Assembly (NCBI GenBank): GCA_020848095.1
Contig: JADLAT010000015.1
Span: forward strand, 1-64,000
Direction of reading: 5' to 3'
DNA: 64,000 bases
Origin: Alphaproteobacteria bacterium
GTDB taxonomy: Bacteria > Pseudomonadota > Alphaproteobacteria > Micavibrionales > Micavibrionaceae
Shown here: in pieces, positions 17,519-22,695 of the stretch
Layout of the letters: each line of letters starts with the position of its first letter
Position numbering within the stretch: position 1 is the first letter of the stretch
Translations under genes and position numbers: made by a program
The notes under the pieces: model-generated
The model's input: only the letters and a program-made list of their open reading frames with translations
Told to the model about the DNA's origin: nothing
Database searches by the model: none

Positions 17519-17546
17519 GGCCGGGGGTTTATCCCCGGTCTTTTAA
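17519..17546 (+). terminator. Rho-independent terminator
   Basis: An 8-base stem (17519-17526 with 17533-17540, one G-T pair), 6-base loop and TTTT. It ends the plus-strand transcript of the hypothetical gene. Its right arm overlaps the last codons of the convergent gloB. Confidence 0.75.
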
Positions 17547-18248
17547 TATCCGAAGCTCGGCAAACCGCTCCGGGGTTTGGGCGCGGAGAAAGATGTTCGT
17601 TTTCTTCTCTTGCGCGAGAGAGATGGGCAAGCTCGGCTTTCCGGTGGCGCGCAGGATTTCGACTTCATGTAAACGCGCCAGTATGTCCGCATTTTCCGGC
17701 TCAATCCGCAAACCGAATTTAGCGTTATCCAGCGTATATTCATGACCGCAATAAATAAGCGTATTTTCCGGCAGGGCTTTTATTTTCTGGAGTGAAGCCC
17801 ACATCTGCTCAGCCGTGCCTTCAAAAAGCCGCCCGCAACCCATTGAAAAAAGCGTATCGCCGGTAAACAGCGCGCGGCTGTCTGGAAAATGCAGGCAGAC
17901 ATGGCCGGATGTATGGCCCGGCGTTTCAAAAACATGCAAGGCCTCACCGCCGAAGCTTTGCCGCATGCCGTCTGTGAGCATAATATTGCCACCCGCTATA
18001 CGTCCGGATTCCTTGGCAGGAACGGCAAGCGTGCAGCCATAGCGCGCAATCAGAGGCGCATTGCCGCCGGTATGGTCGCCGTGATGGTGCGTATTGAAAA
18101 TGATTCGGGGGACAAGCGCGTTGCGCTCCAGAAAATCTATGGCGGGCGCGGCCCCTCCGGGGTCAATGATGGCGATATCACCATCTTCGGCTTTGAGAAT
18201 ATAGGCGTAATTATCGCTTAAAACGGGCAGAATACTGATCTTAATCAT
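17529..18248 (-). CDS. gloB: Hydroxyacylglutathione hydrolase (glyoxalase II)
   Basis: A 239-residue metallo-beta-lactamase-fold enzyme. The first metal site is THHHGDH (H54, H56, D58, H59); further ligands are the His of ETPGHTSGH and the Asp of LFTGDTLF, and the C-terminal CGHEYTLDNAKF is diagnostic of glyoxalase II. It cleaves S-lactoylglutathione to lactate and glutathione. It is about 15 residues shorter than the common form, losing part of the C-terminal substrate region. Its start lies inside the end of the methyltransferase gene (eight-base overlap), so the two are coupled, as often seen in alphaproteobacteria. Confidence 0.94.
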   Translation of the reverse strand: MIKISILPVLSDNYAYILKAEDGDIAIIDPGGAAPAIDFLERNALVPRIIFNTHHHGDHTGGNAPLIARYGCTLAVPAKESGRIAGGNIMLTDGMRQSFGGEALHVFETPGHTSGHVCLHFPDSRALFTGDTLFSMGCGRLFEGTAEQMWASLQKIKALPENTLIYCGHEYTLDNAKFGLRIEPENADILARLHEVEILRATGKPSLPISLAQEKKTNIFLRAQTPERFAELRILKDRG

Positions 18249-19134
18249 TGTCGATTTTTACCTCCGCTGTTTGTAGAGCGTCGCTCAGGCGTTTTTGGGC
18301 GCTGCCGGGGGCGAGGGGTTGCTGCTGGCTTTCATGTGGTGCCCAGCCGATCAGGAATATGATCTCGAAGCTGGCATTCAGGCGGCCATCAAGCCCCTTG
18401 AAATTTTTACCATAATGCTCCGCGGCTTTCAGGAAAAGCGCGCGCCCGGGGTTGGTTTTGCTCCGTGCGGCGATGACATTGCTCTCTCCCATAAAGCGCA
18501 GATCATGCATAAGCTTGAAAATATTATCATAGCTCACGGAAAGGATTTCTGAATCCACGACCGGGAGAGAAAATCCGGCCCGTTGCAAAAGTGCGCCCAT
18601 TTGCGGTTTATCGGCAAAGGGAAAGATGCGGGGCGCTATACCACCTTTCAGGGATAACTCGGCCTGCATCAAGCTGGCGCGAAGCTCGTGCAGCGTTTCC
18701 CCGCCAAAAAGCGCCGCCAGAAACAGGCCATCGGGTCTCAGGCTCCGGCGGATCTGAAGCAGCGCCCCCGGCAGGTCATTAACGGCATGCAGGTCAAGTA
18801 CGCTGAAAACGGCATCTAAAGCCCCCTGCCTGAAAGGCAGAAACTCTTCCTCCCCCACAACGTTTACACCCGCACCGGGGAGTATGTCCATTTTTGTCAG
18901 AAAATCGCTTCCGGCCTGTATTTTGAGGGCATCTGAAAAATCCGGCGAAGTGCGCCCGCCCAAAAGAGCAGAGCGGGGGAATTGGCGCTTGATGTCGGAG
19001 AGCCTCTCCAGCAGGACATTTTGCGTCCATTTAAACAGAAAATCATGCGCAGGCAGCGTATTTACACAGCGTATGCGCGCGCATTTTCGGGCTTCAAGGT
19101 CAAAAACAGAGGAGGGCGGCGCAGCGTTTACCAT
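18241..19134 (-). CDS. SAM-dependent methyltransferase, NDUFAF5/BioC-like
   Basis: A 297-residue class I methyltransferase. The region LGGRTSPDFS corresponds to a degenerate motif I, EEEFLPFRQGALDAVFSVLDLHAVNDLPGAL covers motifs around the methyl-transfer site, and LRPDGLFLAALFGGETLHELR is typical of the NDUFAF5-like group found near gloB and comF in alphaproteobacteria. The canonical glycine-rich loop is weak (SALLGG). In mitochondria NDUFAF5 helps assemble complex I, but the bacterial substrate is not known. It overlaps gloB by eight bases and the upstream 914-aa gene by seven. Confidence 0.85.
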   Translation of the reverse strand: MVNAAPPSSVFDLEARKCARIRCVNTLPAHDFLFKWTQNVLLERLSDIKRQFPRSALLGGRTSPDFSDALKIQAGSDFLTKMDILPGAGVNVVGEEEFLPFRQGALDAVFSVLDLHAVNDLPGALLQIRRSLRPDGLFLAALFGGETLHELRASLMQAELSLKGGIAPRIFPFADKPQMGALLQRAGFSLPVVDSEILSVSYDNIFKLMHDLRFMGESNVIAARSKTNPGRALFLKAAEHYGKNFKGLDGRLNASFEIIFLIGWAPHESQQQPLAPGSAQKRLSDALQTAEVKIDND

Positions 19135-21872
19135 TTTTCCGGGCGTGGCTCCGGCTGTTCTTCCTGTTCGATAAAGTCCAGAAAGGATTCCAGCTCGGCT
19201 TCATAATCTTCGGTGTCGGTGAGTTCTTCTCCGGAGTAATCGGGGACCTTTCCCTGCTTTTTATCTATGACGGGGCCGGCATCCTCTGGTGGTGCTGCCG
19301 CAGGGGGCAGGGACTCTGTTTTAATTTCAGCTTCCGGTACCGGAGGCTGTTCATGTTCAGGCGGCAGCGTTCCATGAAACGGGATAATGGCCGGTTTTGT
19401 TTTTCGGCTCTCCGGTTTTTTAACTTTACTTAGCCCATCCAGCTTCGGCAGTCCCTCCGGTTTTTTTAATTTCTCCGGCGGGGCCGGTTTGGGTTCCGGT
19501 TTTACCGGCAGAGGCACAGGCTTTTTCTTGCGCAAGGCCTCCAGATTATCGTAGTGCAGCGGGATCGACCAGTCCGGCTGCAGCCCCTCAAATCGTTGAC
19601 GAACGATAGCCTTGACGTTAAGTTTGGCATCCATCCTGAGGTCTTCGTGAAAATAGCGGTAAGCGCGAGCGATCACGGTCATGAAATGCGGCTCTTTGGC
19701 AACAACGCTCCGCAAAATCATAAGGTGATAAAAGGGCAGAAACTTTGCCTCGGGCAGTTTCAGTTTCTCCGCCGGAGAAGTCACCACGAAGGGAAATATC
19801 CGGCTGGGGGTCACGCCAACATGACTGTAATAGCTCTCGCCCAGCTTTAGAACCTTGTCCGGCGATACGCCAAACTGATCGGCGATAAATTTCTTCAAAA
19901 ATTTAATATTGGTGATTTCATGGGGAATATTGAAACTGGGTACGGATACGGTCATGCCGTTGCCTTCGTGGCGCTGGGGCACCGGCAGGTAATTGGTAAT
20001 AACGCCCGCATGCACATCATCTTTCAGCCCCTTGGTAAGGGGTAGAACAACCGCCGTATTGACGGTTTTGCCGTCATGAACGATGAAATCGACATTCTCG
20101 GCGGACAAGCCGGAAATGGCCCCCCGGCTTTGCCCCTCCTCAACAAATGTGGAGTGAACTGCCCGAAGCTGCCCGGAGGTTCCCTTTGTGCTTTTAAAGC
20201 GAAGATCATCCTCTTTAAGCGCGTTAAGAATATGCTTTATATCCGCTTTCTTATGAATTTCGGAAGCCTTGAGATCGAGATGTCTGGCGGTCCAGTTCTC
20301 CGCCTTGATGTTGAGGTGCTGGAATAGTGATAAAATCTGTAGCTCCAGCCGCGCATTGGGAATCATGCCGACCGTAATGGCATTCAGGACTTGTTGCGCG
20401 TCCATTTCCCGGATCACGCCTTTGGCCTGAAATTTCTCTACGCCGATCGGGCTTTTGGGGTGAAAGGTTCCGCGTGGTTTTTCAACGCTCAGGTAATAGG
20501 TACTGATATATTCATCAATATAATCGGGCGCGGGGTAATAGGACGGTCCTTTTTCCAGCAAAGCCCCGTTTCGCGGTTTAAGGCCGAGATGATCACGGCA
20601 GAATAAAACCGTGTTTTTCATGTCGAGCTCTTTCATATCGCCCATAATCATCTTGTCGATACAAAGCGGCTCGATCATGTGGCCGCTCCAGCGGCGCTCA
20701 TCGATGTTTTCTCCACCACGCGGAACGGCGTTGGCGATGCTGCGCGCTATGCCGTCATGCAGATAGATTTTCAGGCGGCCATCTTCGTCTATATGATAGG
20801 GAAGAATTTCGTTGATATCGATATCGCGGCTGACCACATCTACGATATCGCCTGTATTTTGATTGCGCATGGCTGTGATTTTCAGGCTACCCGAATTTCC
20901 GCTTGAGGGGCGGCGCTCTTCGATATGCAGACTTTTGCGCTCCGCCATTTTATAGGCAACGGCAATAAAGCAGGACGGCGGATAACCTATGGGCGTGCCA
21001 TCGTTTTCGTAAAGGCGCATGCGGCCTTCAAATTTTTCCTTGATGAAATCCTCATCATGATAGAGGCAGGAATATTGAACCCGCGCGCCAAGGGCGCGAA
21101 GTTCTTTTCTGAATTCCTGCGCGGTAAAAAAGGTGTACTCCATCGGCAGCTCTGTTTCCCAGCTCCTGCGGTCATCCTTGCGCATGATAAATTCATAAGC
21201 CCATTTATAAGGCAGACGAAACAGGCGTGTCCGTGGGAAACGCTCCGGCAGCTCCTCAAGAAAAAAACCACCGCAGCCTGCATCCTGACGAGGACGGGCC
21301 CGCTCGGCATACCAGAGCAGAAGATCAACTTCCGAAAGCTGGGCCAGATCACTGCCCTTGCTGGGCGTGTCAGGCATTTCCATGAGCACAAACTCTTCGG
21401 GCGGCGGACGGGTAAAGTCACGAATAAAAATGACACCGCCTTTTTTCAGCGCCTTGAAATGATTTTGCAGCGTATCGCTAACGATGCGCTCATTGTAACG
21501 CGAGCCGGAAAAAACCTCGTGCAGGATATAGGAGTTAATAATGGCATCAATGGATTCTTCCTCGAAAATATTGCTGGAGGCATCGCCGATTTTAAAATCC
21601 AGATTAGGCAGCTTGTATTGCTCTTTAGCCTTGTTGATATGGCGCGCGCTTTTATCCAGACCGATGAATTCGAGCTTGGGCATCATGGCGGCCATGGCGT
21701 AGGTCAGGGCGCCATCATCGCAGCCCATATCGACAACGCGTGCCCCCTCATCAAGCAAAAGATGAGAGAGCGTAAACCATGCTTTATGGATTACGGCGTA
21801 TTCGATATCCTTAAGCAGGAGATCGCGGCGTTCTTTGTAGGATTTTTCTTCGGTTTCCAGAGATTCGGCCAT
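19128..21872 (-). CDS. Large multidomain protein with N-terminal SAM methyltransferase domain
   Basis: A 914-residue protein. Residues 30-150 are a class I methyltransferase: motif I VVDMGCDDG (46-54), an acidic residue in GLDKSARHINKA (71-82), and FKIGDASSNIFEEESIDAIINSYILHEVF. Residues 150-300 continue that domain with insertions. Residues about 330-480 and 560-710 form two mixed alpha/beta regions I cannot assign with confidence; the runs DVVSRDIDINEILPYH and RRWSGHMIEPL suggest a Nudix-like or related fold, but no complete Nudix box is visible. Residues 780-830 are Lys/Pro-rich and the last 60 are acidic, so the C-terminus is probably disordered. It is first in an operon with the second methyltransferase and gloB. 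The substrate is unknown. Confidence 0.8.
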   Translation of the reverse strand: MAESLETEEKSYKERRDLLLKDIEYAVIHKAWFTLSHLLLDEGARVVDMGCDDGALTYAMAAMMPKLEFIGLDKSARHINKAKEQYKLPNLDFKIGDASSNIFEEESIDAIINSYILHEVFSGSRYNERIVSDTLQNHFKALKKGGVIFIRDFTRPPPEEFVLMEMPDTPSKGSDLAQLSEVDLLLWYAERARPRQDAGCGGFFLEELPERFPRTRLFRLPYKWAYEFIMRKDDRRSWETELPMEYTFFTAQEFRKELRALGARVQYSCLYHDEDFIKEKFEGRMRLYENDGTPIGYPPSCFIAVAYKMAERKSLHIEERRPSSGNSGSLKITAMRNQNTGDIVDVVSRDIDINEILPYHIDEDGRLKIYLHDGIARSIANAVPRGGENIDERRWSGHMIEPLCIDKMIMGDMKELDMKNTVLFCRDHLGLKPRNGALLEKGPSYYPAPDYIDEYISTYYLSVEKPRGTFHPKSPIGVEKFQAKGVIREMDAQQVLNAITVGMIPNARLELQILSLFQHLNIKAENWTARHLDLKASEIHKKADIKHILNALKEDDLRFKSTKGTSGQLRAVHSTFVEEGQSRGAISGLSAENVDFIVHDGKTVNTAVVLPLTKGLKDDVHAGVITNYLPVPQRHEGNGMTVSVPSFNIPHEITNIKFLKKFIADQFGVSPDKVLKLGESYYSHVGVTPSRIFPFVVTSPAEKLKLPEAKFLPFYHLMILRSVVAKEPHFMTVIARAYRYFHEDLRMDAKLNVKAIVRQRFEGLQPDWSIPLHYDNLEALRKKKPVPLPVKPEPKPAPPEKLKKPEGLPKLDGLSKVKKPESRKTKPAIIPFHGTLPPEHEQPPVPEAEIKTESLPPAAAPPEDAGPVIDKKQGKVPDYSGEELTDTEDYEAELESFLDFIEQEEQPEPRPEKW

Positions 21873-21951
21873 AACGGTTCTGTTGTAATCCTTTACGCAT
21901 AAATTTCAAAATTTATAGCCCAAAATCATGATTTAGCCTATAAAAAGCTTC

Positions 21952-22695
21952 ATGCAGAGGGTTTTGAGTCATATTTTAAGCATTGGGCAGCATGGAATTG
22001 ATGCTGTTTTGCCGCCGCGTTGCGTGGTCAGCGGCGCTGAGGTTGATCGTCAGGGTGTAATTGCGCCTGATATCTGGGCGAGTTTGAATTTCATTGCTGA
22101 GCCGCAATGCGCCGCTTGCGGCGGCCCTTTTGAGTTTGAAATTGAGGCGGGTGGTCTGTGTGCGCCGTGTCTGGTGGAAAGGCCGGTATATGAAACGGCG
22201 CGGGCGGCCTTGAAATATGATGATTACAGCCGTGGTCTGATTTTGGGATTTAAACACGGGGATCGGACACAGGCGGCGCCAGCCTTTGTCCCATGGATGA
22301 AGGCCGCCGGGCACAAAATGCTGGCGCAGGCGGAATGCCTCATCCCTGTACCGTTGCACCGCGGGCGGCTTTTGGCGCGGCGATATAACCAGTCTGCCCT
22401 GATCGCGCAGGCGCTTTCAAAAAATACGGGCATTCCAACCTTCGTGGACGCTCTGGAGCGTGTGCGGGCCACCCCGCCGCAGGGGCATATGAATATAAAG
22501 GATCGGCGTCGCAACGCCCGCAAGGCCTTTGCCGTTAACCCAAAGCGGGCGGGGTTGATCGCCGGGAAAACCATCGTCCTGATTGACGATGTGTACACCA
22601 CCGGCGCAACGGTGCAGGAATGCACCAGAATTTTATTAAAATCCGGAGCGCAGGCCGTGCATGTCCTGACGCTGGCGCGGGTTGTGAAATCATAG
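21952..22695 (+). CDS. comF: ComF family phosphoribosyltransferase-like protein
   Basis: A 247-residue ComF protein. Residues 35-75 hold a double CxxC zinc-binding part (CAACGGPF and CAPCLVERP). The PRPP-binding motif is VLIDDVYTTGAT near the C-terminus. LIPVPLHRGRLLARRYNQSALIA and RRRNARKAF are also family marks. ComF is needed for DNA uptake in competent bacteria and elsewhere has an uncertain role in DNA metabolism. It stands alone on the plus strand, 80 bases from the divergent methyltransferase and convergent with the esterase two bases after its stop. Confidence 0.93.
   Translation: MQRVLSHILSIGQHGIDAVLPPRCVVSGAEVDRQGVIAPDIWASLNFIAEPQCAACGGPFEFEIEAGGLCAPCLVERPVYETARAALKYDDYSRGLILGFKHGDRTQAAPAFVPWMKAAGHKMLAQAECLIPVPLHRGRLLARRYNQSALIAQALSKNTGIPTFVDALERVRATPPQGHMNIKDRRRNARKAFAVNPKRAGLIAGKTIVLIDDVYTTGATVQECTRILLKSGAQAVHVLTLARVVKS

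Follow-up and report, generated by a model that had tools for sequence, protein, structure and literature searches.

A methyltransferase gene conserved in the Micavibrio order encodes a predicted tandem of Nudix folds without the Nudix box

The window analysed here is a stretch of 64,000 nucleotides (positions 1 to 64,000 of contig JADLAT010000015.1, assembly GCA_020848095.1) from an alphaproteobacterium of the family Micavibrionaceae, and it contains, on the minus strand at 19128-21872, a single-copy gene for a protein of 914 residues. The protein, hitherto without annotation, is encoded by 54 of 58 sampled genomes of one order and can now be placed as a class I S-adenosylmethionine (SAM)-dependent methyltransferase joined to a strongly predicted tandem pseudo-dimer of two Nudix folds that lacks the cleavage motif, and to a charged tail. 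The Nudix box has been lost, and the conserved polar residues of the Nudix half cluster in only one of its two repeats. With about even chances, the protein is an active methyltransferase whose pseudo-Nudix tandem holds a nucleotide-linked substrate.

Gene and domain layout

The 914-codon open reading frame (ORF) that the original prediction had placed at 19128-21872 was confirmed at exactly these coordinates, with an ATG start, and it is conserved in relatives. A second ORF of 325 codons, located on the plus strand at 20925-21902 and antisense to the methyltransferase part, is considered spurious, given that the minus strand encodes the conserved protein. The gene is divided as follows:

19128-21872, minus strand: whole gene, 914 residues, with a class I methyltransferase, a predicted tandem of pseudo-Nudix domains and a charged tail.
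20943-21803, minus strand: class I SAM methyltransferase domain with a C-terminal cap, residues 24-310, identified by PF13847 and by its fold match to TleD.
20238-20921, minus strand: repeat 1, residues 318-545, a predicted pseudo-Nudix domain apparently related to adenosine diphosphate (ADP)-ribose diphosphatases, from AlphaFold2, fold search and hhalign.
20670-20690, minus strand: WSGHMIE in repeat 1, residues 395-401.
20511-20540, minus strand: YYPAPDYIDE in repeat 1, residues 445-454, aligned to SPGGTSE, from loop L9 of ADP-ribose diphosphatases.
19668-20237, minus strand: repeat 2, residues 546-735, the second predicted pseudo-Nudix domain, from AlphaFold2, fold search and profile comparison.
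19131-19667, minus strand: variable tail, residues 736-914, with a Lys/Pro linker, an acidic end, a FxxELxxF-like motif and a PEKW terminus.

The assignment of roughly the first 300 residues to a methyltransferase, also made in the original prediction, holds up. PF13847 covers residues 41-154 with 51.9 bits against a cut-off of 27, which places the protein among class I SAM methyltransferases, and it is the sole domain that a Pfam scan locates in the 914 residues. The fold matches of residues 24-310 are likewise class I methyltransferases with Z of about 19-22, the best being TleD (Z 21.9, 198 aligned residues). The nucleoside diphosphate (NDP)-sugar enzymes TylM1, DesVI, KedS8 and CalS10 are found among these many matches, but model-based matches at Z 19-22 are generic and single out no substrate.

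Conservation was followed in a deep alignment and tree of 63 rows, built from open frames of at least 690 residues with one kept per set sharing the same core stretch, and comprising 54 long and nine short forms. G50, G54 and D73 are each kept in 61 rows, and N90 and D109 in all 63; the conservation of the SAM-site residues G50, G54 and D73 suggests that methyl transfer activity is retained. The cap (residues 202-233), which includes KWAYEFIMRKD (223-233), is among the densest runs of conserved residues in the protein. In an AlphaFold2 model of residues 1-735, with a predicted local distance difference test (pLDDT) value of 86.0 and a predicted template modelling (pTM) score of 0.89, the methyltransferase and Nudix halves are predicted to pack together in a defined way.

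Predicted tandem Nudix fold of the centre

No Pfam family matches the centre of the window protein (residues 318-735) at E≤1, the best match for the centres of 38 members reaches only E 0.045, and a search of PDB sequences with the central profile yields chance matches only (interferon gamma at E 0.0096, and parvalbumin). An AlphaFold2 model of the centre, with 38 relatives in the alignment, has a pLDDT of 82.3 and a pTM of 0.85. In a Foldseek search with this model, the top four rows belong to two EvaA entries (E 2.4e-8 to 1.2e-7) and Nudix hydrolases come next, the best 50 of the 131 rows at E≤0.001 all being EvaA or Nudix proteins. Alignment with VIA-align 2 gives EvaA a Z of 18.2 and a root-mean-square deviation of 4.6 over 322 residues, spread across 1-418 and thus both repeats. 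The best entry other than EvaA reaches Z 11.1, and the following rows are single Nudix-fold domains with Z of about 10-11, which include AraR (Z 11.1), NrtR (Z 10.4) and ADP-ribose/NDP-sugar Nudix hydrolases; the differences in Z among Nudix families are within noise. A viral fold library adds six matches at E≤0.001, each of about one domain, and those that carry a name are Nudix proteins, the others being uncharacterised.

The centre is thereby strongly predicted to consist of two Nudix folds in tandem. Where the original prediction had seen two mixed alpha/beta parts and guessed at a Nudix-like fold, AlphaFold2 predicts exactly two such domains, and the guess is borne out by the fold search together with the profile similarity between repeat 1 and ADP-ribose diphosphatases described below. 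The novelty claimed for the protein is accordingly reduced to its architecture, which is new; the folds themselves are known, and the centre is no longer unplaced, having a known fold whose catalytic motif is lost. Both of the features described as recurring, RRWSGHMIEPL (393-403) and VVLPLTKGLKDDV (608-620), are present, but neither repeats the other.

Loss of the Nudix box and conservation of repeat 1

The columns that hold the glutamates of the REUxEE motif are occupied in repeat 1 of the window protein by F424, D427 and H428. All three Nudix-box glutamates occur together in none of the 63 rows, and position 424 or 428 is Glu in a single row; an acidic residue stands at 427 in 35 of the 54 long rows and two of the nine short rows. 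Glutamates are not conserved in the corresponding columns of repeat 2 (662-668) either. The loop L9 column of E454 is acidic throughout (Glu in 59 rows and Asp in four), as in ADP-ribose diphosphatases, and in the Bdellovibrio NDP-sugar hydrolase the Glu of this loop is required for catalysis (PMC4629899).

S396, H398 and E401 of RRWSGHMIEPL are invariant in all 63 rows, and E401 aligns with the Glu that immediately precedes the Nudix box of ADP-ribose diphosphatases, whereas only P611 of VVLPLTKGLKDDV reaches at least 95% conservation. At the level of 95%, repeat 1 contains ten conserved polar residues (E319, R321, D345, R377, R385, S396, H398, E401, Q493 and E510) and repeat 2 only one (S574). 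This asymmetry recalls EvaA, in which pocket A works and E139 and E190 are essential, while changes in pocket B leave activity (PMC8987622).

Relationship of the centre to Nudix branches

For profile comparison, a reference set of alphaproteobacterial ADP-ribose diphosphatases was assembled from 15 of 20 loci that passed a Nudix-box pattern, so that an intact box is there by selection; TIGR00052 was the sole Nudix family used as profile reference, and relatives of EvaA were also collected, one of which matches EvaA at 1.9e-128. In a single hhalign pairing, repeat 1 (318-545) matches the ADP-ribose diphosphatases with P 1.9e-6 and a probability of 89.6 over 113 columns. In control comparisons, P is 0.03 for the best of 30 column shuffles, 0.37 for a reversed profile and 0.5 for the methyltransferase part. 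In the match to the diphosphatases, YYPAPDYIDE lies opposite the loop L9 stretch YLPSPGGTSE of these enzymes, and the stretch AQ..L.AI.VG.IPNARLE opposite their closing helices.

A sequence kinship with EvaA was considered and dropped, and EvaA is retained as a fold likeness only: the comparison of the centre with the EvaA relatives is not significant, whether taken whole (hhalign probability 0.2%) or by halves. PF03559, the EvaA family, is not among the Pfam families matched by the 38 relatives at E≤1 and gives 0 matches in these 38 and in a phylum draw of 398 genomes, but the 14 control genomes also give 0, which leaves its absence not shown. Moreover, the two halves of EvaA match each other at 1.2e-42, while repeats 1 and 2 of the window protein do so at only 3.4e-4. 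Since the halves of EvaA are close, those of the window protein are far apart and no sequence match joins the two proteins, their tandem duplications were probably independent events. Thus, the centre has an EvaA-like layout, but the sequence trail appears to lead to the ADP-ribose branch of the Nudix proteins.

Distribution and phylogeny

The 58 genomes searched comprise the source genome and relatives of the same family or order. The gene is matched in 54 of them, the source genome included, and one of the four without a match is only 77% complete; conservation to this degree is far beyond chance. Micavibrio is a predatory bacterium, and the protein occurs in nearly all of the relatives sampled. 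The central profile was also run against 386 genomes drawn from the class and is matched in seven, namely five of the source family (again with the source genome) and two others. In each of the two outside lineages, a single genus carries the protein: two of 17 genomes in one order, and four of 75 in one family.

In the 63-row tree, which was midpoint-rooted for drawing only and does not show the direction of change, the long form (54 rows, with tail) is separated from the short form (nine rows, about 740-800 residues, without tail) with a Shimodaira–Hasegawa-like approximate likelihood ratio (SH-aLRT) support of 100. Within the order, G008, G047 and G050 carry both forms, and in three genomes the tail-less second paralogue, of about 740-800 residues, lies away from the comF locus (L083, L084 and L085). 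At L084, it is placed directly downstream of a gene for an RTX-repeat protein.

When the short-form alignment A4 was searched across the phylum, 387 of 398 genomes matched, but A4 was poorly designed in that it still contained methyltransferase columns; among the matches listed, all but that of the window itself end by model position 232 of 734, within the methyltransferase part. Phage records gave no match to the methyltransferase part, and plasmids (Bacillus, Listeria, Methylorubrum) gave matches at the methyltransferase level only.

Gene neighbourhood and C-terminal tail

Three neighbouring genes are relevant to the locus:

18241-19134, minus strand: mtB, a BioC-like methyltransferase, downstream, overlapping the 914-residue gene by 7 nucleotides.
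17529-18248, minus strand: gloB, for hydroxyacylglutathione hydrolase, the third of the overlapping genes (TIGR03413, 282.3 bits, cut-off 200.8).
21952-22695, plus strand: divergent phosphoribosyltransferase gene of a type that we take to be comF, with computed conservation.

mtB starts within the last codons of the 914-residue gene and in turn overlaps gloB by 8 nucleotides, so that the second methyltransferase and gloB named as operon partners in the original prediction do form one overlapping run with it. The divergent comF-type gene adjoins all 43 named long-form loci. mtB comes next in 34 of these 43, seven others being cut by a contig end and two having no detected mtB, and gloB follows in 30 of the 35 loci where the position is visible (hand count from a table), but the gene lies within an older neighbourhood. 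mtB is common across the Alphaproteobacteria, being present in 52 of 57 searched genomes, and outside the order a comF gene is found in the 1.5-kilobase flank of mtB at 24 of 29 alphaproteobacterial loci. The same holds for G037 and G049, which belong to the order but lack the 914-residue gene. Because comF and mtB adjoin each other in all these genomes as well, the 2.7-kilobase gene is an insertion, made in the Micavibrio order, into an older comF–mtB pair (18241-22695). Therefore, the operon says little about function and the association with gloB is weak and looks incidental.

A pathway clue from the neighbours was also sought and rejected, given the older age of the comF–mtB pair and the lack of a shared pathway among ten scanned neighbour proteins of the short forms and the window. 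These included a D-Ala-D-Ala carboxypeptidase, a pyridoxal phosphate enzyme, a peroxiredoxin, a DUF924 protein, isocitrate dehydrogenase and an RTX protein. As for mtB itself, the match to its best methyltransferase model is confined to the second half of that model (residues 92-139 against positions 47-94 of 95), which would fit a divergent SAM-binding region at the N-terminus of mtB.

The Lys/Pro linker and acidic tail described in the original prediction are present, and many relatives carry a tail of the same kind (residues 736-914 in the window protein), with Lys/Pro and acidic stretches and a variable length. An [EQ][KE]W end is found in 19 of the 54 long forms. In most of the checked loci, the PEKW codons contain the ATG or GTG start of mtB (AAATGGTAA; 19128-19134 in the window), and this overlap largely explains the conservation of PEKW, which was dropped as a docking motif. 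Two loci (L033 and L036) retain PEKW despite a different start site of the next gene. Some 25 residues before the C-terminus, 27 of 54 tails bear an acidic FxxELxxF-like motif (shuffles: mean 0.47, maximum 2), or 12 of 54 with a stricter pattern, both counts being post hoc in that the pattern was derived from the same tails.

Possible functions of the fusion

In the reading that we favour, two tandem Nudix domains would together make the C-terminal half a pseudo-dimer. Repeat 1 would derive from the ADP-ribose/NDP-sugar branch and, with its metal-binding Nudix box gone, would have lost pyrophosphate cleavage, whereas its remaining polar residues (R377, R385, S396, H398, E401, E454 and others), which probably group in one pocket, may bind a nucleotide-linked molecule. 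Repeat 2 would mainly complete the pseudo-dimer, as a counterpart of EvaA's vestigial pocket B. The Nudix tandem could thus grip the nucleotidyl part of the ligand, while the methyltransferase would methylate the attached moiety. A precedent is NUDT9-H of human TRPM2, which has lost hydrolysis and binds ADP-ribose, according to two reports (PMC5671594, PMC6461439). Four points weigh against this proposal: the P-value of repeat 1 comes from one pairwise comparison picked after the fold search and is not a database E-value; repeat 2 matches ADP-ribose diphosphatases at hhalign P 0.0014 and is thus only weakly Nudix by sequence; TIGR00052 has no match at E≤0.001 in the source genome, against 13 of 14 control genomes, because of which the homology of repeat 1 to these enzymes must be remote; and the neighbours of the short forms reveal no shared pathway or common neighbour across lineages. 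The residues R377, R385, S396, H398, E401 and E454 provide a short list of candidates for a direct test.

Non-hydrolytic chemistry in the tandem itself would be an alternative. If the centre were an EvaA-like lyase, dehydratase or isomerase acting on a nucleotide sugar, with the methyltransferase modifying the same sugar in a bifunctional enzyme, it would be understandable that the sole whole-tandem match is EvaA, which is likewise laid out as two repeats with a single working pocket (PMC8987622), that repeat 1 retains H398, E401 and E454 without metal ligands, and that NDP-sugar methyltransferases appear among the fold matches. However, those matches are generic, similarity to the EvaA family is absent at the sequence level, PF03559 is found neither in relatives nor in the phylum draw (with the caveat of the control genomes), the duplications look independent, and the best candidate for a deoxythymidine diphosphate (dTDP)-glucose 4,6-dehydratase in the source genome scores 117.4 bits with TIGR01181, below the cut-off of 365.1, which 13 of 56 genomes exceed. 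This explanation is rather unlikely, and it is kept because possible acid-base residues are retained. Similarly doubtful is a hitherto undescribed bifunctional enzyme that acts on nucleotide sugars or other nucleotide-linked compounds, in which an EvaA-like tandem-Nudix lyase or isomerase would have evolved independently from a duplicated ADP-ribose diphosphatase, after loss of the metal site and fusion to its own methyltransferase, and would have been retained in nearly all of the sampled Micavibrio order to serve a core function.

Nudix domains also have regulatory roles, as in the AraR and NrtR regulators and in TRPM2. The tandem could then be a sensor through which ADP-ribose, a derivative of nicotinamide adenine dinucleotide (NAD) or another nucleotide switches the methyltransferase allosterically on a protein, RNA or metabolite. 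The positions of AraR and NrtR among the best single-domain matches, the loss of hydrolytic residues with retention of conserved polar ones, and the charged tail, whose FxxELxxF-like motif could recruit a partner, are consistent with this role, but the Z values of Nudix families differ by no more than noise, no DNA-binding domain is seen, and the highly conserved cap suggests a fixed substrate, all of which makes a sensor improbable. Less probable still is a centre that serves only as a scaffold for dimerisation or protein binding without a small-molecule ligand. Protein-interaction roles are known for Nudix homology domains (PMC5389931) and repeat 2 is nearly devoid of conserved polar residues, but the ten near-invariant polar residues of repeat 1, with Arg, His and Glu among them, are shared by two clades that a long branch separates, which speaks for a ligand or active site.

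Comparison with known systems

Among the papers listed by searches of an open library on Nudix–methyltransferase fusions, bifunctional forms and this order, subscription papers lying mostly outside it, none describes the protein in its title or the opening of its abstract, and the term "methyltransferase" was not found in a clan-wide Nudix review (PMC5389931). The methyltransferase half shares its fold and SAM motifs with class I enzymes such as TleD, RebM and YcgJ, and differs from them in its distinctive cap and in the C-terminal tandem Nudix region. With the ADP-ribose diphosphatase/NDP-sugar hydrolase branch (TIGR00052; 3o61, 5c7t, 1ga7), it shares the profile match of repeat 1 and the acidic residue of loop L9, but it lacks the Nudix-box glutamates and a TIGR00052 match, carries the tandem in one chain and is fused to a methyltransferase. 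The Bdellovibrio member of this branch is a homodimer with swapped N-terminal domains (PMC4629899), and the tandem fusion could, by analogy, mimic such a dimer.

NUDT9-H of TRPM2 is reported to be likewise an ADP-ribose-type Nudix domain that has kept binding and lost cleavage, although it is a single domain of an animal channel without a methyltransferase. The closest likeness in layout is that of EvaA (NDP-hexose 2,3-dehydratase, PF03559; 4j7g, 4j7h), whose whole chain is matched end to end as a tandem Nudix fold and which combines one working and one vestigial pocket, as the window protein combines one conserved and one degenerate repeat. In contrast, EvaA has no fused methyltransferase, its halves resemble each other closely, unlike those of the window protein, and sequence similarity between the two is undetectable, so that any equivalence of its catalytic E139 and E190 to residues of the window protein, where the alignment is insignificant, is putative. 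If the pocket of repeat 1 does bind a nucleotide-linked ligand, the protein would join EvaA as an example of a tandem Nudix fold put to non-hydrolytic use.

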